This document shows positions 26,833 through 55,673 of a stretch of DNA of 64,000 nt, one piece after another. The position numbers and the translations under genes were made by a program. Source of the DNA: Tethya wilhelma (lineage: Eukaryota; Porifera; Demospongiae; Tethyida; Tethyidae); assembly GCA_964030475.1 (NCBI GenBank), contig CAXIPT010000004.1:2245327-2309326 (forward strand), given 5' to 3'. The notes below the pieces were generated by a model that had not been told where the DNA came from, made no database searches, and was given only the letters and a program-made list of their open reading frames with translations. Numbering within the stretch: the first letter of the stretch is position 1; each line of letters starts with the position of its first letter.

Positions 26833-29800
26833 CTAAGTGCTGTGCAGAGACTCTCCCATGCATGTGGGAGGACCACTCTCTTCCATCACATCATCTTGGT
26901 TCAGCCAGGCATCTATCATGTCGTCAGGAAGGTGGTCCATTCTCTTGAGCTTTGATCGTCCCAGTCCTAGTGCTTGTCCTAGTAGGATCATGTCTGTCTT
27001 CTCAAGAGGCTTAAGGTACTTGCGGATCTTAAGATGATGCCGTTCCGATAAGGCTGCATGTAAGAAAACATCTTTCAATATGCAGCATGGTTCATGTAGG
27101 ACATTCTAATTAATGTATACCTTGTGGTTTAGCATCATTACCAGCTTCACACCCTGTACCTTGTAACTGACTACTTGTTAAATTTCCTACAAAAAGAAAC
27201 AAAACATGACAGTGGCATGCTTTGATCAATGTCACAAACCATTCAGGTCATTCTCTTTTTAGAATATAAGTAAAAACAAAAATTAAACAAAACTGAAAAA
27301 TTATGAAGACCTCCTGTACCTGTCGTTGATGAGTTTGGGCTGATTGTGATCAAAAAACTCGAACAGTCACTCTCGACTCCTTTCAAGTTTACTTTGTAAC
27401 ACAAATTGGGCATAGTAGCTGGAGTTTCATCATCAGGCCTTTTCCATTTAGCACTGAGCTCACAACTAGCAATATCAGCAGATACATCTTGCTTTGATTC
27501 CAAAATGAACTGTTCACTTATCTGCACACGCACACACACACAAATTGTCAATTATTATTTGTAGTGATCGACTCAATTGAAGTCTACATGTATTCACATT
27601 CACTTGAGCCTTTATTTCAACTGATTTAAACAGCAACTTTAAGTAGATTTTATTGGTGCCTAACTACCCTTTACCAGTCCAAATCTCTGCATTGCATGTC
27701 CCATACACTAAAGTCCATCTGGTTTGAGAATGCTGCCGGAAGTGAAATAAATAATGAGATTCATGGCAATACTTTTCATATGGAGCAAAAAAGCTAACTT
27801 TTGACTGGTAAGGTGTAGGAAGCTGGAAAAGCAACCAAAAAAAGGGGGAGAACGAGCACTTTCCAATGGTGCTTGAAATTTTAAAATCGGTTGGATATTT
27901 ACTGTCAATTTTTTCTACCTGCATTTTCAAACCAGATGGACTTTAAGTATTGCCACTGCATCAAAAGCCACCTCTGGGGCTTAGGTGAATGTGAATTGAC
28001 TTTACTTAGTTCTAACCTGTCGGCGTGAGCATGGTTCAATTATCCATCCATCGTCAGTGGTCACACCAGCCTCAGCAATGTCAACAGAAATGGTAGTGCT
28101 ATCTTCGGAGAAGCAAAACGTTATCTTTCTCATGAGAGTCCAACCACCTTGAGTATACTCTTGCTTCACAGCCTGTCAGTGTTGTCAGTGTTTGTGTATG
28201 TATATCAGTGAATGTACAACCACAACATGTCATACATGTTGGCCACAACATATCAAAATTATGGTGCACACATTAAGATCCGGAAAATCATTAATTAGGT
28301 TTAAAATCTAAGCATAATTACAATATACAAATGATATGCACATATTAGCTACTACTGTAACCATTTGTTTAGATCCTAAAACAAAGTGTTTAGATATTAA
28401 AATTGCCATGGATGTGAATATGGATGATATTGTATTTTGCCACAGCTTCTCTTCCTCCCACTCATATGTACATGTTGCAACCACAAAAAAATGTGAAGCT
28501 ACAGTACTCAGGAGTACTATGAAATGTAGATTGCAATGTATGGTTAAATTTTGGTATAAGCTTATAAAAACAGTGACCAACCTCAACGCATTCTTTCATC
28601 CTGGGAGTCACAATCAGTTTGATCAAGAACCAATCCAACATGGCACTATTTGGACGATAGTAAATCCATCCTGAGTACAGAACAGGTGGCTTTTTCGGTA
28701 CAGTAGGTGTGGCTTCAGGTTGTTTTGGCAATCTAATGTGAGTTGGAACCAGCAAGACAGACCAGCTTAATCCAAAGAGTGAAAACGTGCTCACGTTAAA
28801 AGTGCCCCAGTTACTATTGACAGAAAACTTTCCTCCATTGAGTGGCTCAAAAGTGTACGGAGGTTCTTTTGTAGAACTCTGGGCGAAGATAGGTACTAAT
28901 GCTTTTGTATCATCTTCTGTTTTAAGCGAACAGCAATGTTCCAGTTCAAGCGTGATAGGTTTTTTGAGATTTTTCGATGGCTGAATGTAGTAAACTGGGC
29001 TGACTAAGGTATGCTTTTCAGGAAGCTTAAAATTACCAGATAGGCTTGCCCCAACAGTAAATTCACATTGTGTATCGTGTTTCGAAAGTGCTCCTGGAGG
29101 TACATGTATCTTCAGGCCATGCTTCTCCCAAGAAAGAGTTTGAAGTTCATCAGATTTTAAAACTATCAGCAAAGATTGGCTGATAAACTGGACACCAGGA
29201 AGTGGTATGGTTTGAGTAAACCATGCTGAGTGCTTCCTGTGTAGCTCTCCATAGACTTTGGGATTTTCCCTGCATATGCAATACTGAGCTGTATCATTGA
29301 CAGTAGCAGCATGGGGTGTACCCTTGCAATCTCCTTGTCCTTGATGTGGACACATAACTGCATTACTGTAGGGTACATTATCATGACCAAGTGTTTTGAA
29401 AGCTTCTTCTAGACCAGATTTGACTTGTTTGAGAATTCCAAAGCAAATTCTAAAAGCAACACCTGGACATTTCGGAGATTCAGTCAAGTATACTTCTAGT
29501 CTATCAAATGCATCGATAATAGTAACCTCAGCAGGTTCGTCAGGAAGGCAAAACTTGATACAGTTCCGATATAGGGTGTCGGTGCGTTTCCATCCACAAC
29601 AAGAAATGAGGTACACAGAGAGACGGGAAAAAGTACCACAAGGAGCACAGCCATCTTTAAAACAAAGAACAGCTGGAGCTAAAGGAGCATCTTTTGGACG
29701 ATGATCTTCCAAACTTTCAGTTGTAATCTCTTGTAGAAGTGATGGCATAAAATAAACACTGTTTCTGATTGGGGCATCTGGGTCTGTCACTCGGGCCATA

Positions 29801-32800
29801 ATCAAAAGTTTGATGAAAATCTTCACTAGCTCTGCTGGGGAGAAAATATCTGGTATGTAGTGCTTTGAAAAATGTCCTTCATTCAGCATTTTGAATTCAA
29901 TTTCACCAAATTTTGTGTAACGATTCCATTGTTTGTCCACTCTTTCAGACTCTGATTTGGCTCGAAGTTCGAAACTAAAAGCAACCAGTTCAGTAATCTT
30001 GTCAACAATAACTTGTGGATTGACAAAAATGATGTTTTTCAGAATTCTTGGATAATAGAGAATGATGTTTAACTTGTGAAGATACTCCAAAGCTGCGTTC
30101 ACCTTAACTTTGGTCATGTGCAGGCTCAATGCCAGCTTATGGCATTCGTCCAAAGTGATAACACTCTTGTCTAACTTTTGCATGTCTTGTTCAAGTAGGA
30201 ACCAGGCTATTGGGATCCTGTAAGGGGGGTGCTTTTCCTTTTCAGATTCAATATCTTCCCGGATTTTACTTGCAACATCAAAATCTTCATCTTGTGGGTC
30301 CTTTGCATTCAATGGATACAGAATGTCTAGAGGAGGTTTATAGGAAAACAATTTTGGTCCAAGTGTACGTTTCAAATTTTCAACTAGCCAGTGGTTCTTT
30401 TCCTCAATGCTTGCCATCAATTCATCAAGTGTTTCAAAGGCATCTCTGTGTGTTCCTACCACCATGACCTGGCTATGTTCCTCTTTGGACAATGTACGAG
30501 CACAGTGTTGAATGATCTGATCATTTCGGAGATGGGATACATAGCTCGTGCCACGAAGTTTTCCAGATTGTTGATCATAATACTCAATCTTTGGGTACTC
30601 ATGAAGACTTTCTGGCAGCTTCAAAACAATCATAATGACCGATGTATTTTTCACAAAGGCCGGGAGTAGCTCAATGAACTGAGGTTGGCCACCAGTGTCC
30701 ATGAAATGGATCCAGTGAAGATACAAAACTTGCTTTAATTTCTTCCCTTTTTCTAACGAAGCTAGAATTTTCTGCCGGGCTTGAGAAGATTTAGCAACAC
30801 TCACATCATGATCCATATCATCAGTTTGAGTATCCACATCAACAGGCTGACTTTGAAGCTCTGCAGCTGGTGGATGTTTGGTTTCAGTCTGATCAGTAGT
30901 TTCAATTGTTTCATAATGAGTTATTGATCCTTCACTGATTGAACTAGCCAGCATTTCATTCAGCTCATCGTACGTAACTTTGTGCCATCCTTTTTGGTTC
31001 GCTCCAACAAATTCACGAGAAATAGCTCGAATCGGATCATCAAACAGTGGTGTGCTTTTACGTATCTCTTTTAGCTTTTCGAGTTCGTTGAATAGAAAAT
31101 ATTTGGTGTGAGTTTTTCCATTCCCGGCAGATCCAGTGACTAAAACTTTTGTGATGTGAAGAGTCACATATCCACTTTTGAGGGCTTCTCTAAGAATTAC
31201 TGCATGTGACAAAACAAGAATATATATAGGTCATGATACATGATTCAATTACCATAGATCGGGAAATTTTCGCTGCTCTAAATTTTCGACACTATAGCGC
31301 GCATGGCAGAAATTTTCCCGATCTATGGTAATCGTTTTTCTTGCATGCATAGCTATACTATAATTATTATGTGATATACACTACATCATGCAATCAGTGC
31401 ATGGCATGATGCAATGCTGAACTGCTAGCTTATCGACCACCGAAGGTGGGAGAGGAAATGTAACGGCGAGTCGGCGACCCAGCAAAATTCATATCAAGTC
31501 TAAAAATAGTACAAACCACAAGTCATGTAAAATTATTGTGCTTGTGCCATGTATGCAGAGGAGGTACGACACGAGTGCGCCTTTGCTGAGCTGGCAAGTC
31601 TGTTAATTACATTCCAATCATGTGACCGCAATACTTCATAATGAGAATTGATCACGTGCACCTGCGTTGCCAGCTCAGCAAAGGCGCACTCATGTCGTAC
31701 CTCCTCTGCCGCGTATGTATGCAGTACTTTCTAGTATTTATGAAGGCACCGATGGTGCATAAGCCTCGACACACTCAACTAGCTAGCACACTTATATGCA
31801 TACACAGTGTAAAAGAGTGTAACATAACTCAGTATCACTGAAAACTTCAAAACTACAGCCTACTAGTGATAGTGGCTGGCATAGCTAATACAGCTGTGGC
31901 CTGAAGCAGCACATGTCACAGACTATAAACCAGATGAGCTCTGCTACGGTTATGTACATGCATTGGAATACTCATGCAGCTGCTGTCAAAGTCTAGCAGT
32001 GACAGCACGGTAAGCTGGGCCTCAGGAAGAGCCTAGCTAACTACTGATGCATTAGCTATAATGATCTAGCTTGTGTAAAGTCTTTGCATGCCCTATACCA
32101 GTCACCACTCAGTCAAAGATTCCAATTAATACTCACCATCTTTCTAAACCTCTCACAGCAGCATCACCAGAGCTCCAGTCTGAAACATCACTCCTATCTG
32201 AAGCTGAGGATATTAACTATGAAAGTCGTGATTCTGTCCCAGGAGTGACGTTCAAAACATCTGAAGGCCAAAGCAAGTGGACACCTGTTGTACCAAGACG
32301 AAGAAAAAGGAGAGAAAACAAGCATAGCAGTGTGGGTCATGTAGAGAGCAATGGAGATTCTAGTGGCAATGAAACATTGGACGTATCGTGTGCTAGAAAG
32401 GTTGAGTATGAAGAACGTAATGGTGTACCAGGAATAAGTGTTTATCAGAGATGTCCAACACCCAAGTGGACTCCTATCAAAGCTGCCTCTAACAAACCAG
32501 TAGCATCCAGAACTAGGTCTAAAACTTCTTATCTTCACCCAGTTACAGGCACCTAGTAGCTTAAATGTATTAATGTTTTACGTATGGCTGGAGGTTAACT
32601 CCTCCTGACCTTCAGTGCAGAATTCTAGATTGTATTTCTAACTCTCTCTCTTTTATGAGCAAACTATACCCAATTCTGTGTTCTGTACTGTAAAGCAATA
32701 ATAATAATAATAATAATAATAATATGCTTACATAGAAAGCAGACCAACTCATATCTGTCTTGCCAAACAACACTAACCAACAGCCATGCATCCAAAGAGC

Positions 32801-34781
32801 CATGCAGCATTGCACCTCAGCAACACAAATTCTAGATAACGCACACCAAATTAGTAGGCGTGGCCTCGAAGCTAAGCGCTCAAAGAAGCACAAAAGCCTC
32901 AAAACTCAAGAACTACAGTGTCTTGGACAGCAAAAAATATATTTTTACAAGATCATTCAGAGTTATGAACGTAAGTACCATCAATTTTGTCGCTAGAGCT
33001 GCCTTTCTTGAGATTTCGATGGGACAGACAGACAAAACGACTACCGTAACGCTCTGCACGTGCTACGCACGCGCCGAGGCTTAAAAATTGAAGAGAAAAG
33101 TTTGTGCAGTACAAATAGTAGCATGTAGCTTGAACTAGAAAAATAAACATGTGCAAGCTTCAAGATCCTCACCTTTGTTTCAATGTTAGAGAAAAATTGA
33201 CAGCCAAAATTTACTGCTCATAACTCTCCTGCTAGCAATGTGCATAGTTGTCCAGGAGTCCGAGGAATCAATGAATATTGGAGATAGAAGAGCATGTCTT
33301 TGAGGACTAGCTACTCAGCCAGACTCAGCCACTTCTGTGTTGGTAGTAAACTTGGTACGAGCAGAGCGTAAGTAAAAAAACCGTAAACAATACCAGACCA
33401 TACCGTATTTCTCCATGACACAATATTATTATCTATATTTAGTATATCCGGCCTGGCCATTTGAATTTTGCTGGGTACACATAGCATATGCGCTGTTACC
33501 TGCCCTCTCCCGTCTTCGGCAGTCGATAAGCCCTTGCTACCAATGATGCACCCTCATAAACGCATTTTTGTTTTTGTGTTACTTTGTTTTCATGCATTTA
33601 GAACAAAGTCAAAGGTTGTCAGTTTGAAAATGCAATTCAGTTCATTTTGGGCTGGCGTCCAGAAAACCAGTTAAAAGCAAAAAAAAAACCCCTGATTTAT
33701 AGAGCTAAACTTGAACAGTTTCACATTCATAGTTAGTGCATACATGAATAATTAAAGTAGAGAAAAGTTTCAACGTAGCCTTGAATCGTCAATTTTGAAA
33801 ACTAAATTCAGGTGATTCGCATGTGCTGGCATCCAAAAAAAAACTAGCTGGAGGCAGTCCTATTTTCAAGAGAAGTGTGTACATGAAGTGATTCAAATTG
33901 AAGCTAGAGCAGCTTAGAGCAACTTTTCACAATTTATCACCACCACCACCACTTTTCTCAATTCAGGCTGGGTATATCCTTGCTTAACACAATGACCACA
34001 TTTGTTCAGTAAAAGTATCCATACCTGATTTAGGCAGAGGCTCGCCTTCTTCCAGTAAACCATATTTCACCCGAAGTTGATCTGAAAGTTCCTTTTCATC
34101 CACCAATGGAGTACGGAGAATCTTCACTACATTTTCCTGAGAAAGGACCACCTTAGAATACCCATCCAACCAAAATTGCAGCACCTTCTCTAACAGGTAT
34201 GTATGTCGAGCCTGACTACCCAGTTGCGCACTCACAAGAGTTGACTGTAGTTGACTGACATCTATTCCTAACATAATTCCAATTTCAAACCATTTGGAAG
34301 CCACAGGAGCAAGATCTTGTAGTAATTCTTTCACTGTTAAAAATAGTATACAAGCATCTAATGACATTGAACACACAAAAAGTTTGTAAACAGTCAACTC
34401 AAGCAACTCACCAGGGCCGGGATTTGTCTCAATGTCTCCACCAAGGAGCAGTAGTAGCTTCAAATATAAGAGTACAAGTGATACACATTTCAGCGAAGAT
34501 ATTTTGATGAGCCAGCTTTTCCAAACACTTAAGCTGAACATTGAAAATGAAAGTGGATCTTTCCATGATGAGATGATCAACACCAGAGAACAGACAAATA
34601 GTGAACATGTCAACCCAAGAGATGGACAAGTGTAGGGTGAGCTCCGAGCACACGGCTGCTTTCTATGGATGCTGCTCTGTGGACTCCTAATTCCTCTCAG
34701 TTTGACTGGTCTCCAGACTCCCAAGGTACAGTAGGAGCAGCCAATACGAGCCCTCCATTCTTGCACACTCTGCAATGGCAT
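26833..34781 (-). CDS. 2A-leader / Death / Roc-COR / ZU5 / Death protein
   Basis: Seven exons with matching phases are seen: 34412-34781, 34025-34333, 28582-31199, 28017-28172, 27320-27521, 27121-27186 and 26833-27053. Together they give 1313 codons plus a stop. Exon 1 encodes two hydrophobic segments and ends in a 2A-like motif (GGDIETNPGP). Exon 2 is a Death-like domain (ELLQDLAPVASKWFEIGIML to ELSDQLRVKYGLLEEG). Exon 3 holds a Roc GTPase (P-loop GSAGNGKT near residue 249, DTGGQ switch, THRD base motif), COR, a cysteine/histidine-rich stretch and ZU5 (SWEKHGLKIHVPPGAL). Exons 4-5 encode a module in the position of UPA. The last exon is a Death domain (LLGQALGLGRSKLKRMDHL). Inferred to be an intracellular switch that recruits Death partners. 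Exon 1 starts at the ATG at 34781, matching the paralogue at 37019. The link between exons 2 and 3 (2.8 kb intron) rests on phase only. Confidence 0.7.
27709..27945. mobile_element. MITE, AAGTCCATCTGG family, copy 2
   Basis: Termini TAAAGTCCATCTGGTTTGA and TCAAACCAGATGGACTTTA. Lies in the intron between exons 4 and 5 of the Roc-COR-ZU5-Death gene. Confidence 0.75.
31253..31327. mobile_element. short palindromic element
   Basis: CATAGATCGGGAAATTTTC and GAAATTTTCCCGATCTATG enclose about 40 bp. The terminal CATAGAT resembles the 7 bp-target family, but no matching flank duplication is seen. Lies in the 2.8 kb intron before the Roc-COR exon. Confidence 0.5.
31559..31706. mobile_element. MITE, GAGGAGGTACGACA family, copy 1
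   Basis: The arms GAGGAGGTACGACACGAGTG and their reverse complement extend about 40 bp to GCTGAGCTGGCAA. The direct repeat ATGTATGCAG is at 31549-31558 and again at 31715-31724, eight bases beyond the right arm. The length would suit a Mutator-like 9-10 bp duplication, but the offset leaves this uncertain. Intronic. Confidence 0.55.
32071..32556 (+). CDS. unknown open frame with internal repeat, possibly retroelement-derived
   Basis: A 161-residue open frame. Two related segments occur: YESRDSVPGVTFKTSEGQ followed by SKWTPVV, and YEERNGVPGISVYQRC followed by PKWTPI. The C-terminus (ASRTRSKTSYLHPV) resembles the basic tails of some retroelement polyproteins. A LINE-like tail and (AAT)n follow. 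The first codons have no clear start context, and the frame lies within the large intron of the Roc-COR gene on the opposite strand. It could be an exon of something larger. No function proposed. Confidence 0.3.
   Translation: MCKVFACPIPVTTQSKIPINTHHLSKPLTAASPELQSETSLLSEAEDINYESRDSVPGVTFKTSEGQSKWTPVVPRRRKRRENKHSSVGHVESNGDSSGNETLDVSCARKVEYEERNGVPGISVYQRCPTPKWTPIKAASNKPVASRTRSKTSYLHPVTGT
32696..32724. repeat. (AAT)n microsatellite
   Basis: About nine AAT units after TACTGTAAAGC, in the position of a simple-repeat LINE terminus. Confidence 0.85.
32725..34024. other. intronic stretch without recognised feature
   Basis: Part of the intron between the first Death exon and the Roc-COR exon. Short poly-A runs (33677, 33833) and a (CAC)n run at 33941-33953, nothing else. 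Confidence 0.4.
34413..34442 (-). other. 2A-like ribosome-skipping motif, copy 1
   Basis: Codons for GGDIETNPGP form the last ten full codons of exon 1, preceded by a leucine run (LLYLKLLLLL). This meets the 2A core consensus D(V/I)ExNPGP, where the ribosome fails to link the final glycine to proline and yet continues. After splicing the downstream product would begin P-V-K-E-L-L-Q, directly before the Death domain. Confidence 0.8.
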
Positions 34782-35877: not shown

Positions 35878-36149
35878 ACAAGTGAAAAAAACATTGGAAA
35901 TGTAATGAGACATAGGAATGGCCAAATCGTAAAAAAGAAAGCAAACAAGATGGAATAGCTGTTTGAGTGTGTAAAGAATTATTCCTATGGGCAAAATAAG
36001 GGACTCAACATGGAAAGAGAGTACTACATGCAGCCCACACAGGAATGATTCTGCACACACTCAAACAGCTATTCCATCTTGTTTGCTTTCTTTTTTACGA
36101 TTTGGCCATTCCTATGTCTCATTACATTTCCAATGTTTTTTTCACTTGT
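35878..36149. mobile_element. foldback element with 110 bp arms, copy 1
   Basis: The left arm from ACAAGTG and the right arm ending CACTTGT are near-perfect reverse complements for about 110 bp, including CATTGGAAATGTAATGAGAC and CAAACAAGATGGAATAGCTG. The unpaired centre is about 50 bp. A second copy is at 51466-51730. Confidence 0.8.
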
Positions 36150-36314: not shown

Positions 36315-37019
36315 CTCTATGCTCGCCTTCTTCCAATAAACTATGTTTCACTCGTAGTTGATCTGAAAGTTCTTTCTCATCCACCAATGGACTATGGAGA
36401 ATCTTGACTACATTTTCCCAAGAAAGGACCACCTTAGCACTTCCATCTGACCAAAATCCCAGCATCTTCTCAAATAGATACATATCATCAGGCTGTGGCA
36501 CACTATGAAGAATTGCCAGCAGTTGATTGACATCTATTCCTAACTGAATTCCAATTTCAAACCATTTTGAAGACACTGGTGCAAGATCTTGAAGTAATTC
36601 CTTAACTGTTATATCTGTAACAAAAGTTTAGTACATGAAGTATTTCATATGAACAATTTCAACTCAAGCAACTCACCAGGACCAGGATTAGTCTCAATGT
36701 CTCCACAAAGAAGCAACAATAGCTTAAAATAAGATAGTAGAAGTGAAATTGTGAAGAGCCAGCCTTTCCATCTCAAGCGAACTATTGAAAGCGAAGGTGG
36801 CTCATTCCATGATGAGATGATCATCATCAAAGAAACAAAAAATAGTGAACATGTCAGCCCAAGGGAAGGACAAGTGTAGGGTGAGCTTCGAGCACTCCTT
36901 TTTTCGTGAATGCTGAGAGTAATCTTAGTTCCTCTTAGCTTGACTGGTCTCCAGACTCCTAAAGCACAGTAGGAGCTGCCGATGCGAGCCCTCCATTCTT
37001 GAACACTCCACTGAGGCAT
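36315..37019 (-). CDS. 2A-leader plus Death-domain gene, paralogue (partial)
   Basis: Exon 1 is 36677-37019 (ATG at 37019) and exon 2 36315-36605; both junctions are phase 1. Exon 1 encodes QWSVQEWRARIGSSYCALGV, a hydrophobic segment (LGLTCSLFFVSLMMIISSW), a second one (LLLSYFKLLLLL) and then CGDIETNPGP at the exon end. Exon 2 is the Death-like domain (ELLQDLAPVSSKWFEIGIQL ... ELSDQLRVKHSLLEEGE). The exon-exon order and motif positions repeat those of the 26833-34781 gene. Exon 2 leaves in phase 1 towards exons that are not found before that neighbour begins. It may be a truncated tandem copy, a short isoform, or an alternative first part of the neighbouring gene. Confidence 0.65.
36678..36704 (-). 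other. 2A-like ribosome-skipping motif, copy 2
   Basis: Codons for GDIETNPGP, preceded by a cysteine and five leucines, at the last codons of exon 1. The core is identical to copy 1, whereas the flanking leader differs at many positions, which points to selection on the motif. Confidence 0.8.
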
Positions 37020-37052
37020 GCCGCGGTATAAACAGCTACTAGACAGTCAAAC

Positions 37053-37827
37053 CATAGATAATATAGACTACGTAACCGGGATTGGTGACTTCTCACGTGA
37101 GCAGTATAGTCCTGTACTTTGTCGTTGGACAAAGTGTGTCGTGGTTTTGTTGAGTGAAAGATGCAGCTGGTGGGTTGTATAGCCCACACAAAAAGAGCCA
37201 AGAACGCAAATACACTATGATTGCATGAAAGTTCAGGCATAAAATAAATAGATATAGAGCAGAAGCAAGTATTGAAAGTCATTTTATTACAATCTATTGA
37301 CATATACAATGATAAATGAACCATTTAGTACAAAATGAAACAAAATATCTAAACGGCACGGCTGTTTTGGACTGTCCTGTTCAGCAGAAGCAAAACACTT
37401 GGATAGAAGGCAACATAATGGATACTCCAAAGGCTCCTACAGTTGATTAGAGCCTACAGGTTTGAAAAAAATAGTCAGTACTAAAAATTATACATGATAA
37501 ATTATGACAAACTCACCCGCTGAAGTAGCGTACTTTTTTTGGACTCATACTCGAGAAATATTCAACTTGACTGACTTTTAGCCACATAAACAGCTAGTTA
37601 CAGAATTGAAATACTTGAATAGGCAGGAAATAACTGCCATATAAACAATCATCTCTAGAAAATCTACTTCAGAAAATACTAACTTCCAAGACAGCTCAGT
37701 GTTTTGTGAATAAATGACAGCTGTACTTGGGCGCGCGAACAAGAAACGGCGACACGCAGAGTTTGTATTAGTGTATTGCTCACGTGAGAAGTCACCAATC
37801 CCGGTTACGTAGTCTATATTATCTATG
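37053..37827. mobile_element. MITE with about 50 bp TIRs and 7 bp target duplication (CATAGATA family)
   Basis: Termini CATAGATAATATAGACTACG and their reverse complement (about 50 bp). Flanked by GTCAAAC at 37046-37052 and 37828-37834. No transposase. It sits between the start of the 2A-Death gene (37019, minus) and a possible first exon on the plus strand (37889). Confidence 0.85.
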
Positions 37828-37888
37828 GTCAAACCGCAAAGGCTAAATACGCGCCAAATTTACGGGGAAGTGGGCGTGTCCTCCAAAA

Positions 37889-39662: not shown

Positions 39663-40489
39663 TGAGGGTGGCCAGATGTTCTTTGTGGGTGGAGTCCTGC
39701 GAGACTAGTCACTTCCATATGCACTATCCCAGCAACAGAGGTTTCCTGTGTGGTCACTGGGTCACAGAGGGTACAAAGTTTGTTTTACTTCCAAGCCCCT
39801 CACTGATATCACCATACATGATGGCCATGCTCCTGTGACACTTCTACATTGAGATTGAATTGCACATGATGTGTACTTCCTTCACACATTTTGCGTTATA
39901 ATTTATTTATATATTTTTTCTGAATAAGCAAGCCAAGATGTTAGATAAGAGCAGTATTTGGCCAATTTAGATCAATCTATTTATATTCACAGTATAATTA
40001 TGGTATAAGTATTGACTTTCTTTGACCTTGTGATTATACCTAAAATCTCGGTGACCTTAAATTTTGATACTTTCTGCGGGGCTTTGCAGTTCAACTGTAG
40101 ATAATAATTTGCAGGTTGATCACTATAGTCTTGTGTAGCCAGCCCCTCTCTAATATTCACTCCACACACATGCTTTTGTGGAGCATTAATTCGTGTGGAG
40201 CGAATATTAGAGAGGAGCTGGCTATTGTAGTTGATCACATACGTGACTTGTCATACTTTGACTGCACTTGTACTTTTGACCTATCAGTCAGTATCCGGAC
40301 TGCATGCTGAACAGTCGACGATAGCGGTTGGTTCATAATTCAGTTCAGCGGCTGCTTCAAATTTCCATCTGAGCACTGATTGGAATGAGTGTAAGATAAC
40401 ATAAGACCCCACTACCAAAATAAATTAATTTTTTACCAGCATGATGAGGATAATATTAAACTTGTAGAATAATAATTTTTGTCTTACAG
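39663..40489. other. region upstream of the Death/MED25-like exons
   Basis: Contains a 95 bp palindrome at 40134-40226 (GTAGCCAGCCCCTCTCTAAT against its near complement), probably another MITE, and a block at 40375-40440 shared in inverted form with 34916-34985. No exon identified. Confidence 0.4.
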
Positions 40490-43408
40490 TCAGTTCCAGA
40501 ACTGAGGGACTTGTCAAATGAACTTGTTCCAGCTAAACAAAAGTGGAAAGAAATTGGTGAACAACTTGGAATCACTGATGAGCAATTTAAACAGTGGTCT
40601 CGTCTTGAATCCCGCAATAACCCGGCCCCAAAGATGCTCTGTTGTGTACTAGACTCCTTGTTGAAAGGTAACACCAGTGTCAGTCCAACATGGGACAATA
40701 TTATAAGGGTTCTTGAATCAGTTGGAGAGGTCGATCTAGCACAACAACTGAAGCTGAAATATTTAAAGCCAATAGGTGGTTCAGTAGCAACAGGTCAGTA
40801 TCAATGATAGTGGTTTTTCTTTCTTTGTTGTTTACTGGTAATATGTATGGGGGTGTGATCAAAAGGCGAAAACCTACTGAGCTACAAGCAGAGTGTTTAG
40901 CTGTTAGATTTTCAAGTGCTTGGGCCAAACTGCAGCCAACTGTTGACTGAGGACATCTAATAACTATCCTGCAAAAACTGCTGTTTTGTACTACTGACAT
41001 AATAATACAAGTGTTATGCTTGCAATTATTAAAATTCACCTATTGTTCTATTCCACACACTCTACATCAAAAGGAGCTTCCACTAGTAAGGTCCAAAGTG
41101 GCCAACAGCCAGGTGGCATGTTACAAAGACCAACTATCATATGGAGTGGACAAATGGAACTACCTGAAGTGGTAAATACACACTGATTCTTCCTCAAGGT
41201 CATAATCGTGTGTCTTTGTTTTCCAGCGTGACAACCAGCGACAGATGCGTCACATCCAGTGCAATGTCTTGACATCAAAACCAGATATCATCCGTGATAT
41301 GTATGTGACACTGACTATCACAGCCTCATTCCCACGCCGGCAGGCTCTTCACCATGTAGTTTTGAATTTGATGGTCTTTACTTTGAATATCATGTTTTGA
41401 TCCATGGTCTTTACTTTGAATATCATGTTTTGATGGTCTTTACTTTGAATACCAGTAAAGATCACGAGAGTTTTGTTGTAGTAAAGTAGGAACAGAGAGT
41501 TAGGCCTTCGAATGAAGCTAGCACTATAGTTGTGTGTTTGGTCATGCTATTTATCAAACCAATCCGCTCATGGCATGCAATTTTCAGGAATCCAGGATTA
41601 TGGCCCTCCAAGATGACAATAAACTCCTATCCCAAGTCAATCTTTGTACGTTGACAACATGACATTATTTATAACTGGTTGCCTAATTTTCATATTTTTG
41701 TATGTCTGTGTAACTAATAATTAAATCATGTTTTTATTTTATTTTAGCAGAAAATTTTCAATCTATAATATACTTTCATTGTATGCAAAATTTGATCTTG
41801 ACATTGATTATAGAAAATAGTCATCCATGGCAAAAACTAGAAGTCATGATCTAAAGCAATGTGATATTAATTTTCTTTTTCTTTTTTGCTCCATTTTAAT
41901 CTACTCCATTCTGTTTTTGTTTCCTTCCAGAACTCCATCATGCGTGCAATGAAGTTCCAGCCAGGTGCTGCTGCAGTGAAGACTGTCACATTCCAGTTCC
42001 ATGAGAATCCTCAAACAGTGACCAAGCTTCGAATGCTCATGACCAGTGAAGTGAAGAATGTGAGTAATCATTTAGACTTAGTGTTGACATACAAATATTA
42101 AGCAACCAATGGTACAGACCTCAATTTTGATCCTACATACACATTTGTTCTTGTGTGCTGCATATTTAACTTATTATTATACACTTGGCATGCTAGCATT
42201 CACATTCTAGCATCTACATCATTAATTTAATGCTATTTAGTGGTCATATTAACTGTACATAATTATAATTATGATACTACAGTTTGCCATAGTGCAGCTG
42301 GTTGATGCCCAGGCGGTGCAGTGTCCCATCAGAGCTCTCATACTGGTGTGGAATGATAAGCAGAAGCAGTTTACAGGCCTCATCCCACTGGAACAGGTAT
42401 ACCACTTCTGTAGTTTAATCTATAGGGGTACAATGTACTTGTGTACAAGTGGAGGAGAGTCCAGACTATGTATGCCCTCACATAGCACTAGCTGACTCAT
42501 TGTCATCTATCATCCAAGTAACAATTATTGGTATGGGTTTTTTTTTGTTTGTTTTTTTTTGGGGTTTCCAATTATAAAATCAGTATCCATGGCACTCAAT
42601 CGCTGTCTGTTTGAGTACGTACATTACATTTAGTCTGTATTATTACTGTCTCCAACTCACTTGTCATCTTTGGAGGTTTAGTTCTACTGTCTCACATGCA
42701 CACACAATCATGTCAATCACAGGAGAAGTTTGTGCAAGTGGTCTCACAGGTGTTGTTTCAACGTCGACAAATGCAACAACAACAACTACAACAACAGCAG
42801 CAGCAACAATCTACGGTGTGTTTTAGACCATTAAAAAGTATCTCAAAGTTAGTATTGTCCAAATTATACCAGGCTATGTTCTTATCAAGCTAAACCTTTT
42901 TCTACTATCCCTGATGGCATTTTGAGTTATTAAGGGGTTGAATATAATTGTCGTTGTTTGACTCTTATTGTTAGTTGTTTGTTTATCTACAGCAGAACCC
43001 TGGCTTTCAACCACAGGGTTCTCAGCCTTCTTCATCCCAGCCATTGGGTGGTAACCCAGTTCAACCATCAGCTCAACCAGGACTCCAGACCCAAGGAGGA
43101 GGAGGCCAGCAGACCACAGGGACAGCAACAGCAATGGCAGCGCGGGAAATGGATCCTAATATGGCGGGGCAAACCTCCAATGTGCCAGCACAGAGCCAAC
43201 AGCCTCAGCAGGGCCAGCAAGGTGCATCACAGCAACCACCACAGATGGGAGTAGGACAACAGCAACAACAGCAGCAAGTACAACCATCCACTGGAATGCC
43301 TCAACCACACACAGTATGTTAGTTGTATGAGTCACACTGTAGGAGCTCCTGTTGCAAGCTAAAGTTGCACCTATCCATGTGTACATACTTAAGGGTGTAC
43401 ACACACAT

Positions 43409-46205: not shown

Positions 46206-49200
46206 TCAACAACATTGTTCCTTTTCTATCTCATCGGCAATGCCAGTTTGTCCCATCGCTTGTAATTTCTCGACTAACACTTCCCATGTTAGGGGATCAC
46301 CAGACTTTACTTTCACATTATCTTGTTTTCTTAGCCAAGCTAGCACTATGTCCATAAGGTCTTTGCCCTGGACAGTAAATGGGCTTAATCCTAGTAATCC
46401 TCCAAGAAGCTGTATCATATCTTTGTCCAGCTTTTTGAAATACAACAAGACTTGGCCCCAGTCATCTTCGGATAAGATCTTAGCTATACAAATAAACAAA
46501 GAAGGCACGAATGAATACATATATAGTCTAGTGTAATTACATGCACCCCGTGCCATCAACAAAAATATAATACCTGATTTAGAAGGTCTATTTTCCATTG
46601 ATGGTTGAGGTTGACTAGTTGATGGTTTGCCTTTGCTTACCATAGAAGAATTTGCTACAATAACAATATGTGATGAATATGCAGTAGCCAACATGTTAAC
46701 AAGTATCTGGTGATAAACATGTGGTTATAAACAAGCTCATTTACAGACTGTTGTGTGTATTGTGTTTATTGTGTTGTTGTAGCTCTGTCCTGTGTTGATA
46801 AGTGTTTATGTGACTACACCTTACTTGTAAATAGCGTTGATTGTCTTGTGTGTCCACCTTAATTTCTGTTACTATGTGTTGATAGGGAGCTGACTATTTA
46901 AGTAGCTGTGTTTTGTGTAAGGATTAGAATTAGTCATAGTCAAGATTATTCTGATGTACTCCAATGTTCTACAACTAATAAGAATACTTTAACTGTCAGT
47001 GTGACCAACCGGCGCTGGGCAGCGAACCTGGATCAGTCGCATGCAACACTAGTGGGTCGTGTTACAAAATTGGCGTAGTCGGCAGGATCTCTCAACAGTA
47101 AATCTCTTGGACAGAATCAGCAGACATGGCATCGAGGCCATTGGCACTTCCCGAGATCTTCACAGGAGAAGAAAGACAGAGTTTTAGCGACTGGGTGGAC
47201 CATTTCGAGAGCATTGCCACGGTGAACGAGTGGAGTGCAGATGCTAAGAAGAATTGGATCCGGGCTAGACTCACCGGAAGAGCAGCTACCTCTTTCAAGA
47301 GATTACTGGATGCAGAGAAGGACACTTACGACCATATTGTTGCAGCACTTAAACGAGAATGTTGATTATAATANCGCACTGCTTTGAATTTGAAATGGCG
47401 AACGGGCGCCATTTTGTTGAATGTCGCGAAATTAATGCCCGGCCACGCCCTTTTATACTCCGCCTCTTCGTTTAAGAAAAGGTTCGAGCCGGAGTGTAGG
47501 AAGGAAGTATTTATGGCGGAGTTCCAACGCAGGAAGAAGCGTCACACAGAGGACTGGGCATCTTTTGGAGAGAACCTGAGAGCGCTGGTGGAGAAGGCCT
47601 ATCCCACGCTGCAGGTGGAGGCACAGGAGCTCCTAGCGTTGAACCGTTTCCTCTCGGAGATTGTGGACCCGCAGCTTGCGTTTGGAGTACGCCAGAGAGC
47701 CCCTGCATCAGTGGACGCAGCAGTAGCAGCTACGTTGGAGCTGGAGACGTACCTGCAGAGACCCATGATGACAGTGGCTGGGGTGGAGCTGGAGGATCGC
47801 AGCGATGACGTCATGGCTGTGGCGTCTGCAGGAGCAAGACGGAGTATCGAGGATACGTTGGCACTGCTATTGAGGCGCATGGACAGGTTGGAGAAAGCAC
47901 TAGAGGGTGACGAGGAGAGGAGCCGTTACCGAGAGGATAGTGCAAGGGGCAACCTGCGACCATGGGATGATGGCAGGAGGAGACTAACGTGTTGGAGGTG
48001 TGATCAAGAGGGACATGTTGCGAGGAACTGTACCCAAATGACTCCTGGGAACTCTGCTGGGAAACACCAAACTGTGGGAGCGGTGAGCTGTGCTGACCAG
48101 GATCAGAATGAGTTTGAGCGAAGTGATTGTCACAGTGGACCAGGTACTGCAAATCGAGTGGATGTGGGGATGCGTATCAACACAGTTCATACAGTGAATA
48201 CTGCTGGAGATCAAGAGACCGACTGTTGTGTACGTGTTCAAGTACAAGACACCAGTGCCTGCTGTTTGGTTGATACTGGAGCAGCTGTATCACTGATTTC
48301 ACACGACTTATGGAACCGACTGGATGTCAAGCTGCCATTGGAGAAACCCGACTGCGAGCTAGCTGGAGTTCAAGGAAAACCGCTGAAGCTTCATGGATCA
48401 TGTACTGTCGAAGTGAAGTTCAGAGGAGTGGAAGCTACGTTCAAGACCAGGGTGTACATTGCAGATTCGATAACTACAGACGTGATTCTAGGACAAGATT
48501 TCCTCCAGGCGAATTACTGTGTGGTGGAGATGGGATCCATCAATCAACTTTGTTTTGCTGGTCACAAGAGTGTGGTTACAATGGGCCAAGGGGACCCATC
48601 CGATTCAAGTTGCGTCGCAGTGGTGGAGATAGCACGCAACGTTGCAAACCCCGATTCTGAGCTAGAGAAGATGGTGCCCGTGATTATCCCTGCTGGTTTG
48701 GCTGAAGCAGTTGGAGAGAAGCAAGCTAAAGAGAAGACAATTGCAATGGTGGAACCCGTGTCAGAAGAGTGTGACTTTGAAATCCTTTGTTCCAAGAACC
48801 ATGGTCGACCCCCTGAACCAGTTGTCATTCCTAAGATTAAAATTCGGGACGAATTTCTCGAAGGAGGGGGTGATGTGATGAATATGCAGTAGCCAACATG
48901 TTAACAAGTATCTGGTGATAAACATGTGGTTATAAACAAGCTCATTTACAGACTGTTGTGTGTATTGTGTTTATTGTGTTGTTGTAGCTCTGTCCTGTGT
49001 TGATAAGTGTTTATGTGACTACACCTTACTTGTAAATAGCGTTGATTGTCTTGTGTGTCCACCTTAATTTCTGTTACTATGTGTTGATAGGGAGCTGACT
49101 ATTTAAGTAGCTGTGTTTTGTGTAAGGATTAGAATTAGTCATAGTCAAGATTATTCTGATGTACTCCAATGTTCTACAACTAATAAGAATACTTTAACTG

Positions 49201-50701
49201 TCAGTGTGACCAACCGGCGCTGGGCAGCGAACCTGGATCAGTCGCATGCAACACTAGTGGGTCGTGTTACAATATCATTGGCAGATAAATAATTTATTGT
49301 TATAATTATAGCTGCATGAGCGCCATTATAATAGCTCGTTGGGCCGTATGCTCCTGCATGAATTTATACCTGAGTTTGGGCTGATTGTGATCAAAAAACT
49401 TGAACAGTCGCTCTCAACTCCTTTCAAGTTGACTTTGTAGTACAAATCAGGTATAGTAGCTGAAGTTTCATCATCAGGCCTTTTCCATTTAGCACTGAGC
49501 TCACAACTGGCGATATCAGCAGATACATCTTGCTTTGATTCCAAAATGAACTGTTCACTTATCTATACACACACAACATAATAAATCATTATAGTCAGTG
49601 ACCTTTGTTACAAAAGTCTTTATTCACATTCACTAGCTGCAGGTAGATTTTGGTAGTTCCTATAACTACCCTTTACCAGTCAAAATCTCTGGGTTGTATA
49701 CATGCACTAAGCTACTTTTGGGGCTCAGGTAAATGTGAATGGACTTTACTCAGAGTTTTCAGTTCTAACCTGTCGACGTGAGCATGGTTCAATTATCCAT
49801 CCATTGTCAGTGGTCACACCAGCCTCAGCAATGTCAACAGAAATGGTGGTGCTATCTTCCGAGAAGCAAAATGTTATCTTTCTCATGAGAGTCCAACCAC
49901 CTTGAGTATACTCCTGCTTCACAGCCTGTAGTTGACATAATTATCAATGCATGTATGACCAGATTATGTCATGATAGCCACATGTCAAGATAAAGAGTAC
50001 ACAAACATCGCTTTTTTATGCCACAATTTTAGAGTACTATGGAATGTAAATTGTCCATGCATGATTAATTTTGGTAAGAGCTAAACAATGACTAACCTCA
50101 AAGCATTCCTTCATTCTGGGCGTGACAATCAGCTTGATCAAGAACCAATCCAACATGGGACTATTTGGACGATAGTAAATCCATCCCGTGTATAAAATAG
50201 GTGGTTTTTTGCGCACAGCAGGTGTGGCTTCAGATCGCTTGAGAAATTTAGTGCGAGTTGGACCCAGCAATGAAGACCAGCTTAATCCAAAGAGAGAAAA
50301 TTTGGTTACGTTAAAAGTTCCCCAGTTTCGGTTACTTGAAAATTTTCCTCTGCGAAGGGGTTTAAAAGTATATGGTGGATTTTTTGTAGAACTCTGGGCA
50401 AAAATAGGTACCAAGGCTTTCATATCATCTTTTGTCTTTAGAGAACACCAATGTTCCAGTTCAATTGTGACGGGTTTTTCAAACACTTTGGATGGTTGAA
50501 TGTAGTAAACCGGACTGACTAAAGTATGCTTTTCAGGAAGCTTGAAACTACCAGACAGACTTGTTCCAACAGTGAATTCACATTGAGTATCGTGTTTTGA
50601 AAGTGCTCCTGGAGGTACATGTATCTTTAGACCATGCTTTTCCCAAGAAAGGGTTTGGAGTTCATCAGATTTCAAAACGACTAGCAAAGATTGGCTGATA
50701 A
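46206..50701 (-). CDS. ZU5 / Death gene (5' part missing, intron holds an LTR element)
   Basis: Five exons: 50097-50701 (ZU5, cut at the N at 50702), 49770-49925, 49370-49562, 46573-46654 and 46206-46483 (stop at 46206-46208). Phases match those of the 26833-34781 gene exon by exon. ZU5 (SWEKHGLKIHVPPGAL) and the following module (YTQGGWTLMRKITFC, TTDNGWIIEPC, ISEQFILESKQDVSAD) are over 85% similar to that gene. The Death exon (SEDDWGQVLLYFKKLDKDM, LLGGLLGLSPFTVQGK, PLTWEVLVEKLQAMGQTGIA) is instead closer to the single-domain Death genes. The Roc-COR part is absent because the exon ends abruptly at the N; this may be an assembly break or true loss. A 2.6 kb retrotransposon sits in the fourth intron. 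Confidence 0.65.
46669..49271 (+). mobile_element. short LTR retrotransposon encoding only gag and protease
   Basis: LTRs at 46669-47066 and 48874-49271 are each 398 bp and look identical; both run TGTGATGAATATG to GTGTTACA. A primer-binding site-like TGGCGTAGTCGGCAGGAT begins at 47071, and a purine tract (GAAGGAGGGGG) precedes the 3' LTR. AATAT occurs at both outer junctions as a likely 5 bp target duplication, overlapping the LTR end by one base. There is no reverse transcriptase, RNase H or integrase: the frame passes from protease straight to the purine tract. It is inserted, on the opposite strand, in an intron of the ZU5/Death gene. Confidence 0.85.
47126..48892 (+). pseudogene. retrotransposon gag-protease frame, interrupted
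   Basis: The frame from ATG 47126 (MASRPLALPEIFTGEER, a gag N-terminus) stops at 47363-47365. The continuation (RFEPECRKEVFMAEFQ...) opens in the frame that ends at 48892. About 110 bp carrying an N (47375) separates them and looks like an insertion or a bad join. The second part has a zinc knuckle (CWRCDQEGHVARNC, C-x2-C-x4-H-x4-C) and a retroviral-type aspartic protease (CCLVDTGAAVSLIS, later VILGQDFLQ). It ends in EFLEGGGDV over the purine tract. Particle formation and polyprotein processing are the known roles. Reverse transcription would depend on another element. Confidence 0.75.
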
Positions 50702-50975
50702 NATACAATAAAGTCACATAATGGTGTGCATATTGTATAATTATAATACAATGAATTATTGGGTGTCCACCATGCTAAATAATTAATCAAACTCTGCCAG
50801 TGTATTTGACATCTGTGCACGAGTCATTGCCTGTGGGGTCACTGTAGGCATAGCATTAAAGTTTATAGTGCATCCATGTAAATTCTGAAGAGATATAGTT
50901 GGAACTTGATGAGAAGATGATGCAGACATATCAATAGTATGAGTTTTGCTTGACATATGTTGGCTAATGTCATTA
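50702..50975. other. short spacer after an assembly N
   Basis: Starts at the N that truncates the ZU5 exon. AT-rich; the minus-strand frame continues from the recombinase fragment but without recognisable domain. Confidence 0.4.
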
Positions 50976-53682: not shown

Positions 53683-54095
53683 ACCTTATTCACAATTATT
53701 TTTCTAAATAACGCACACCACCGCGCGCTATGGCGGGAACAGTTTCTGGGGCAAACAGCTGCACACATTCTTTTCTCTATTTTTGTACACTTTTCACCAG
53801 AGGTTTTTAGACAGCTGCAATAATATTGCAAGTTCCTTCTTTGCAAAAAGCTTGAAGCACACAAGAGTAAGTAAATAAATTTTACAAACTACGGGATGAA
53901 TGAAAATTATTCAGTCTACAGCATGCTTTGTACTGCATACCTGTATGTAATAAAATGGTTAGCACTCCAAGAAGCCTTCTGCTTGCAATATACTACAAAA
54001 CATTCATTTTTTTAATCTTTTAAACTGCTTGCATATAGAGAATACTGTAGAAGCCGTACTTTACTACGTAGCTAAAGCCAAAGTTTACTATACAT

Positions 54096-55673
54096 ATGAT
54101 GATTATTGCTGACCTCACAACCACAGGAATGCAAAATCAAGTCCCGTGGCCAACCTGGGTACCTATCACCAACACAAGTTTTTCTTTGGGATTTACTATA
54201 GCACATATGACAAACTATTTTATAACCAGGATTACATTGGATGGCAAGTCAGCTAATGATTTTAAGAACATTAATTCCCATGCGTACCCCCTATTTCAAG
54301 ATGGACACGTACAAGATATTAGGGTACATACAATAGGAGATATCACATATATTGAAGCAAAATGTCTTCCAGAAATGAAGAAGAACATCGTTTACACCAC
54401 ACGAGTTGCACTGTGTAATTTCACTGCTGATATACTGCGTGCACAATGTGGATGTGCAGCAGGAAGGGGACCACATGGCAGCTGCAAACACATAGCAGCT
54501 TTGTGCTATGCACTAGAAGATTTTATTCGGAATCACAAGTTACAAGACCCTCCTGTCGCATGTACATCCCAACTCCAAACTTGGAATCAACCAAGAAAGC
54601 GTAGTCTTGATGCTGTTCAATCAAATGACATCAAGATTGTTAAGGTGGAGTATGGTGTAGAGAAGAGGACATTGAAAGTTTATAAATACGATCCAAGACC
54701 AATCTCTTTGCAGTGTACTTCAGCTCAAGAAGTTCAGTCACTGCGTGAAGCTGTACGGAATAAAGGTGATTATTCCCTACTACATGTCATTGCTTCAGAT
54801 TCTTCTCGATCAACACAATCAACCGTATCCACTCGTCTTCCTCCAATACCTCGATCATTAGTAGAGCGAACTCGACATCTGCTCAAGCAGCAACCTCAGC
54901 CTGTGTCCCTTCAAGATATTATAGATCATGGCACTATTCTTGTGAAGAAATTGGCACTCAGTAAAGATGAACAAGATGCAGTTGAGAGAGCAACTAGAAT
55001 GCAACACATGTCTAAACGCTGGCACGAAGAGCGATATGGACGGCTGACTTCATCAGATTTTGGTGAAATCATCAAATGCAGACAGTACCAAGGCCATGCA
55101 GAGAGGAAGTTGTATCCAACCCATAGTAACTTAACTTCATCAGCAATTCTGTGGGGAAGAAATAATGAATCTGTTGCTCGTGAAGAATACGTCAAGCAAT
55201 TGGACAAACAGCTATCGGTTAACAGTTGTGGGATAATTATAGCTGGTTGTGGTTTCCTAGCCGCTTCTCCTGATGGTATCATATGTGATAAAGAAAATGG
55301 GACGAGGTTAGGAATGCTAGAGATTAAATGTCCATTTTCACATAGGAATGATTCCATAGCCGCTGCATGTGAGAAGAAATCCTTTTTCTGTAAAAAGGAT
55401 GATACAGGAATTCGTCTGAAAACAAATCACAACTACCACTACCAAGTCCAAGGCCAAATGGCTGTTTCAGGTCTTCCATGGTGTGACTTTGTTGTTTGGA
55501 CATTGAGTGATATCCACATTGAAAGAATTTATTTTAGTGAGGAATTCTGGAAGAAAGAGTGTTACCCTAGATTACACAGCTTTTATTATGGAATAATATT
55601 ACCTGAACTACTACTTACCAGATATCCTTTGGGACTGAGTATTTTAGATTTTAGACAAATTCTATCATGCTAA
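54096..55673 (+). CDS. transposon-borne SWIM zinc finger / YqaJ-type nuclease
   Basis: A 525-residue open frame from ATG 54096. Residues about 110-145 hold a SWIM finger (AQCGCAAGRGPHGSCKHIAA, CxCx(n)CxH). Residues about 310-480 match the YqaJ/lambda-exonuclease-like PD-(D/E)xK fold: WHEERYGRLTSSDFGEI, WGRNNESVAREEYV, AASPDGII, LEIKCP (catalytic D and ExK) and HYQVQGQMAVSG. YqaJ nucleases process DNA ends for strand annealing. In this transposon group the protein is presumed to help excision or repair. No stop or frameshift is visible, so it may still be functional. It ends 110 bp from the end of the opposing transposase frame. Confidence 0.75.
   Translation: MMIIADLTTTGMQNQVPWPTWVPITNTSFSLGFTIAHMTNYFITRITLDGKSANDFKNINSHAYPLFQDGHVQDIRVHTIGDITYIEAKCLPEMKKNIVYTTRVALCNFTADILRAQCGCAAGRGPHGSCKHIAALCYALEDFIRNHKLQDPPVACTSQLQTWNQPRKRSLDAVQSNDIKIVKVEYGVEKRTLKVYKYDPRPISLQCTSAQEVQSLREAVRNKGDYSLLHVIASDSSRSTQSTVSTRLPPIPRSLVERTRHLLKQQPQPVSLQDIIDHGTILVKKLALSKDEQDAVERATRMQHMSKRWHEERYGRLTSSDFGEIIKCRQYQGHAERKLYPTHSNLTSSAILWGRNNESVAREEYVKQLDKQLSVNSCGIIIAGCGFLAASPDGIICDKENGTRLGMLEIKCPFSHRNDSIAAACEKKSFFCKKDDTGIRLKTNHNYHYQVQGQMAVSGLPWCDFVVWTLSDIHIERIYFSEEFWKKECYPRLHSFYYGIILPELLLTRYPLGLSILDFRQILSC

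Follow-up and report, generated by a model that had tools for sequence, protein, structure and literature searches.

A hydrophobic leader exon with a putative 2A end precedes a Death/Roc-COR-ZU5 gene in the sponge Tethya wilhelma and belongs to a large set of similar leaders

A gene of Tethya wilhelma begins with an exon encoding a hydrophobic leader that ends in a 2A (StopGo) core and is followed in phase by a Death-domain exon and a Roc-COR-ZU5 body. The gene lies on the minus strand of a stretch of 64,000 nt (hereafter the window; Table 1). According to our preferred interpretation, to which we give a probability of about two in three, exon 1 is a genuine coding exon under selection, its working 2A partitions the Death/Roc-COR-ZU5 protein between cytosol and membranes, and it is part of a duplicated and shuffled set of leaders. 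The Gly-Pro bond at NPGP would usually not be made during translation; the hydrophobic leader, ending in NPG, would be released, and a cytosolic protein would run from Pro-Val-Lys-Glu at the Death domain into Roc-COR-ZU5. If skipping failed, the leader would be retained and the Death/Roc-COR-ZU5 protein tied to the ER or to secretory membranes. Duplication and shuffling would have placed the leader-2A exon, with its phase 1 end, in front of dozens of Death-domain exons.

Table 1. Position of the leader, Death, body and candidate last exons in the window.
Feature	Position	Strand	Remark or basis
Exon 1, cassette 1	34412..34781	-	start codon 34781-34779; ends with the 2A core and one base
2A/StopGo core with its two preceding glycines, GGDIETNPGP	34413..34442	-	reading of the sequence
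Intron 1, 78 bases, GTGAGT...AACAG, phase 1, open if unspliced	34334..34411	-	sequence
Exon 2, divergent Death domain, 309 nt, phase 1-1	34025..34333	-	profile match; C1 paralog
Open frame of exon 3 (Roc-COR-ZU5 body; 3' end of the exon not fixed)	28465..31199	-	Pfam ZU5; AF2 model; homolog P0001
Possible Death-like exon, frame ends early; gene membership uncertain	26836..27105	-	no Pfam match
Candidate last exon, Death-like, with stop codon	25628..25941	-	Death-like; no Pfam Death match
Cassette 2 leader exon	36678..37019	-	CGDIETNPGP at 36678-36707
Cassette 2 Death exon, approximate limits	36321..36611	-	phase 1 donor

The GGDIETNPGP codons at the end of exon 1 (34442-34413) follow a leucine-rich run, LVLLYLKLLLLL, as described in an earlier note on this DNA, and directly 3' of them stands G|GTGAGT, a phase 1 donor after 34412. 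The leader of about 122 residues postulated there is also found, since exon 1 comprises 123 codons, i.e. 122 from ATG to NPG and 123 with the Pro. The core is of the (D/G/C/N)(V/I)ExNPGP type that defines the 2A/StopGo motif (PMC12846837). D(V/I)ExNPGP had 0 occurrences in 200 base-shuffled windows, and a longer 31-base pattern with two matches in the window was found in none of 100 dinucleotide shuffles. The hydrophobic character ascribed to the leader stands insofar as hydropathy revealed two hydrophobic stretches (residues ~50-74 and 91-115), the first of which stops 48 residues ahead of the skip point; as these stretches begin only at residues 50 and 91, the leader is no simple N-terminal signal peptide. 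Considering the length of the ribosome tunnel, we assume that the first stretch should be out of it at the 2A, and the second should not.

Exon 1 (34781-34412), exon 2 (34333-34025) and exon 3 (from 31199) can all be joined in frame in phase 1, and the splicing drawn here is predicted from these junctions. The joined product of exons 1 and 2 reads NPG/P-V-K-E-L-L, with one exon 1 base after the 2A. Exon 2 was not recognised as Death by Pfam, even at E 1. A profile of 14 exons from the same genome, compared with the PDB at E up to 1, gave 17 matches, 16 of them Death-domain proteins (including FADD, the best at E 1.1e-4, PIDD, ankyrin-2 and RIPK1); the sole other match was NF6 (E 0.33). Together with the phase 1 join, this bears out the in-phase Death exon proposed earlier. 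The single-sequence fold of exon 2 (mean pLDDT 56, one meaningless match at E 7.9) was dropped as evidence. Exon 3 lies within a 922-codon frame in which Pfam detected a ZU5 domain, and Pfam Roc scored under its cut-off on the window frame (14.7 vs 27 bits). An AlphaFold2 model of the exon 3 body, based on 25 sequences (mean pLDDT 71.6; 190 of 866 residues below 50, mostly at the far end), best matched LRRK2, LRRK1 and bacterial Roco RocCOR. Furthermore, the closest public homolog, P0001, has precomputed ZU5 and COR domains. The body is thus confirmed as Roc-COR-ZU5, Roc-COR by fold match and ZU5 by Pfam, as the note had it. It shares the Roc-COR fold with known ROCO proteins (LRRK1/2, bacterial Roco), whereas the ZU5 after COR, the N-terminal Death domain and the 2A leader set the window gene apart from them. 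The C-terminal Death domain of the same proposal has only indirect support: the candidate exon (25941-25628) aligns with the exon 2 type (probability 97), but no Death match was obtained for it in PDB or Pfam searches, and its Death identity is not firm.

The join of exon 2 to exon 3 is supported by a paralog at C1:19630184-19633214, where the reading frame passes from Death to the Roc P-loop uninterrupted by an intron. This paralog possesses the same leader N-terminus as the window gene (MPLWSIQEWRARIGSSYCALGVWRP; at the N-terminus of the C1 copy, MPLWSIQEWRARIG) and the 2A, and there is one in-frame TGA inside its body. 2A leaders lie upstream of the ROCO relatives at C1, C2 and C4:1648454. 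The two window paralogs closest in identity (58902-61301, 83%, and 50040-50774, 80%), both ZU5-bearing frames on the minus strand, have no 2A site upstream within the window, which speaks against the preferred interpretation.

A second leader-2A-Death cassette, absent from the earlier note, is present at 37019-36321. Its leader ends LLLLLCG, in agreement with the favourable L-rich (A/S/C)G context. The regions 34040-34781 and 36321-37019 align in five blocks of 81-85% identity, the last of which stops at the ATG, and the cassette 2 intron, paralogous to that of cassette 1, contains an in-frame stop. For the two leaders the dN/dS (NG86) amounts to 0.28 overall and to 0.19 over their final 40 alignment columns (33 codons); for the two Death exons it is 0.51. 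All of these values come from one pair of copies and thus from a small sample. In view of the value of 0.28, the leader exon is under selection as coding sequence. An unused exon 1, i.e. a pseudo-exon or unspliced upstream frame with translation from exon 2 or 3, would fit the many public homolog predictions that begin at or inside the body, near the Roc domain; however, the leader dN/dS, the conservation of the start codon and N-terminus in three copies (cassettes 1 and 2 and the C1 paralog) and the phase 1 junctions found throughout the genome make this highly improbable. Because both Death exons of the window end in phase 1, cassettes 1 and 2 could serve one body as alternative first exons. 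Other close same-strand leader pairs are found at C3:213687/214387, C2:1357688/1358534, C1:17935653/17936761 and C9:169684/173502; these are possible alternative first exons as well. A transposon-like insert (37051-37829) with 56-nt terminal inverted repeats, 98% complementary, lies immediately upstream of the start codon of cassette 2, and inverted arms of 112 nt are present at 35878-36149.

In the 124.6 Mb genome, exact D(V/I)ExNPGP is encoded at 77 sites (D-sites; reversed-pattern control, 0) and NVERNPGP at 12 (N-sites; control, 1), giving 89 candidate 2A sites, and these controls rule out their origin by chance. Cores with G or C in the first position have 0 sites each genome-wide. L044 and L045 seem to be unrelated or chance matches, and L086, which reads DIKINPGP and thus has a broken core, was left uncounted. 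A Death-like exon is located downstream on the same strand at 62 of the 86 sites examined, many of which are tandem duplicates and thus not independent. The window gene is therefore one of a large set and not the single odd gene that it had appeared to be. With a Death-like HMM built from eight seeds, a sense-downstream exon was found at 50 of 72 D-sites; the matches around these sites comprised 57 sense-downstream and 2 antisense-upstream (both at L014), with none elsewhere. One of the seeds, a plus-strand Death-like frame of the window (40460-40807), has no Pfam match. The 14-sequence A1 profile alone was positive at 49 of the 72, including 35 that were not seeds. Three of five further D-sites and all nine N-sites examined (of 12) have a Death-like exon; the nine are L077-L085, each an NVERNPGP leader ahead of such an exon. 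At 22 of the 72 first-examined D-sites no Death-like exon was found in the downstream sequence covered (~0.6 to 3.5 kb per site), and absence there is no proof of absence. In a seed-free test, five of the 150 Pfam Death matches listed (from 591 candidates) had a same-strand 2A upstream within 3.5 kb, with 0 downstream and 0 on the opposite strand. Among the matches listed, 2A leaders are therefore present on a minority of Death exons, mostly outside Pfam's best list.

A candidate donor (score >3 with a donor table, no more than 45 bases away and ahead of any in-frame stop) was found at 66 of 72 sites, and it is in phase 1 at 62 of these 66, mostly 1-13 bases past the motif (34-37 bases at L039, L070 and L071). 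The octamer itself was fixed by the search pattern and its constancy carries no weight; the flanking residues were unselected. Among 68 sites (four retroelement-like ones dropped), G stands directly before the core at 67, and L occupies positions -6, -5, -4 and -3 at 60, 62, 62 and 57, respectively. In contrast, the residue two before the core, usually A, S or C, is G in cassette 1 (LLLLLGG), as at none of the other 71 sites. For this reason predicted skipping is less sure for cassette 1 than for the site set as a whole. The earlier reading of the motif as a 2A core is strengthened in that the motif recurs genome-wide, the leader is selected and the context is L-rich and ends in G, and it is weakened by this one atypical residue.

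The same departure from the usual residue would suit a membrane leader or signal-anchor that has kept an NPGP-like end by accident, with little or no skipping and a protein that is just tethered to the membrane. In fact, 59 of 72 leaders contain a 19-residue window with a mean hydropathy of at least 1.6. Annotation has led to the proposal of sponge NLRs that are bound to membranes (PMC12909245), and in some artificial constructs the 2A reaction was inhibited when the segment preceding the 2A was translocated into the ER (PMC2978324). However, simple tethering would not account for the conserved, unselected G and L context before the core or for the low dN/dS at the leader end. Furthermore, in a leader-family search (whose short query has the core at its own end) all 37 matches with E below 1e-5 extend across NPGP and correspond to D-sites of the genome-wide set. 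We therefore consider tethering with little or no skipping unlikely, and retain a working 2A as the preferred interpretation.

The bodies found further downstream include ROCO-ZU5, NACHT, NB-ARC-like, ankyrin, MYND and PARP types, and the genes with the leader-2A-Death arrangement look immune-related. At least six of the 51 ROCO-body matches listed, at five places, have a same-strand 2A upstream within 8 kb (C3, at 6.9 kb, being a weak case), with none downstream and none on the opposite strand. For NACHT, at least six of the 102 matches listed have a 2A upstream, two have one downstream on the same strand, and none on the opposite strand. Single loci were assigned by Pfam to ankyrin repeats (L040), MYND (L050), PARP (L039) and an NB-ARC-like ATPase (L063).

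At L010, L017, L046, L072 and L089 the 2A core is followed by a PHD-like or similar Cys pattern, judged by eye, which we take to be retroelement-like (L010, the one locus scanned, has a PHD match of E 6.5e-5, just under the Pfam cut-off). By this pattern, at least 5 of the 77 D-sites look retroelement-like. As 2A is known in non-LTR retrotransposons (PMC11512398), with the same core, the leader exons could be remnants of the 5' ends of such elements, captured by genes or merely located beside them. This seems quite improbable to us, since the same-strand Death exons (one follows each of the two window cassettes, as distinct from the retrotransposon 2A), the phase 1 donors and the selection on the window leader fit genes; capture from a retrotransposon in the distant past is a possible origin of the leader. 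A retroelement Gag/aspartyl-protease frame is present on the plus strand of the window (47375-48889).

The closest precedent for a working 2A leader comes from sea-urchin NLRs, 2A-like sequences being reported in ~35% (85/241) of them (PMC4981915). A sea-urchin NLR leader (SpNLR2A) not only skips but also serves as a signal sequence, its activity being about 80% by a cell-free translation estimate, and reporter assays in cells of mammals and plants demonstrated dual targeting (Roulston et al. 2016, PMC4981915). The dual-targeting principle invoked in the earlier note is thus published, and in view of the ~35% a single genome with widespread 2A use is, as such, no novelty. In SpNLR2A and Tethya alike, a hydrophobic N-terminal leader terminates in D(V/I)ExNPGP and precedes a Death-type innate-immune protein, and by analogy we infer skipping, at whatever efficiency, a signal-sequence role and thereby a dual location for the window leader as well. 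However, the sea-urchin leader has 26 aa (PMC4981915), whereas that of the window has 122 residues with two hydrophobic stretches; in Tethya the leader is a separate phase 1 exon, N also occurs at the first core position, and ROCO-ZU5, ankyrin, MYND, PARP and NB-ARC-like bodies are found in addition. As its body is Roc-COR-ZU5 rather than that of an NLR (Death, NACHT and leucine-rich repeats), the window gene may work like an SpNLR gene, but is none.

StopGo is described as mostly viral and, in cellular coding sequences, very rare, in contrast to the 89 candidate sites in this one animal genome; an example of motif 6, which belongs to the L-rich class, was active in reticulocyte lysate, and N at the first core position was active as well, to about 90% or more (PMC12846837). 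Nearly all 68 Tethya sites resemble viral motifs 2 and 6 in the L-rich run, the A/S/C and the G before the core, which then reads D(V/I)ExNPGP, or NVERNPGP at other sites (PMC12846837). In contrast to a viral polyprotein, the Tethya cores belong to cellular genes and lie at an exon border, and cassette 1 ends in GG. The NVERNPGP leaders would represent cellular use of a core variant described from viruses.

A broader interpretation, which we put forward tentatively and regard as possible rather than probable, is a general StopGo first-exon system in which D(V/I)ExNPGP and NVERNPGP leaders on many families of Death-domain sensors set the share of membrane and cytosolic protein. The inhibition of 2A by ER translocation in some constructs (PMC2978324) suggests a targeting-dependent switch: engagement of the first hydrophobic stretch by the ER could suppress skipping, and the outcome would then depend on the condition of the secretory pathway. 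If skipping is real, one immune-type protein would be placed in two compartments at the level of translation, an arrangement apparently spread by duplication and exon shuffling. StopGo leaders could also explain missed first exons or stray membrane segments in gene predictions. NPGP was found in none of the 39 public homologs, which are predicted sequences, and leader plus Death matched no public protein of 604-1923 aa; this counts against the preferred interpretation, but may reflect either missed first exons or true absence. No paper on 2A in sponge genes was among those listed from the open-licence literature searched; two in which '2A-like' occurs beside a sponge term (PMC5890393, PMC10253181) are on other subjects by their titles. 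The ROCO-ZU5 gene class is not named in those parts of the 2A literature that were compared, the searches not being aimed at ROCO or ZU5. Within this scope the statement of the earlier note that it knew of no such description in a ROCO/ZU5 gene is not contradicted; the principle is known, and the ROCO-ZU5 class and the wider range of Death-domain gene kinds appear to be new.

The genome also has a Bcl-2 repertoire of animal type; the best matches listed for it are Bcl-2 family structures and do not point to any phylum. Some further loci deserve mention. At G000:C13:183783-200529, four tandem genes (L068-L071) carry the 2A core inside a long open frame and not at an exon end; the upstream part is hydrophobic, the frame was followed over 474 codons from the core onward in L069 and L071, and L069 has no Pfam match. 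The plus strand of the window also encodes a YqaJ exonuclease-like frame (54072-55670) and, at 4544-11431, tandem frames sharing a signal-like start (IIQLSLIAASILLPVVSSQQQGLPL).
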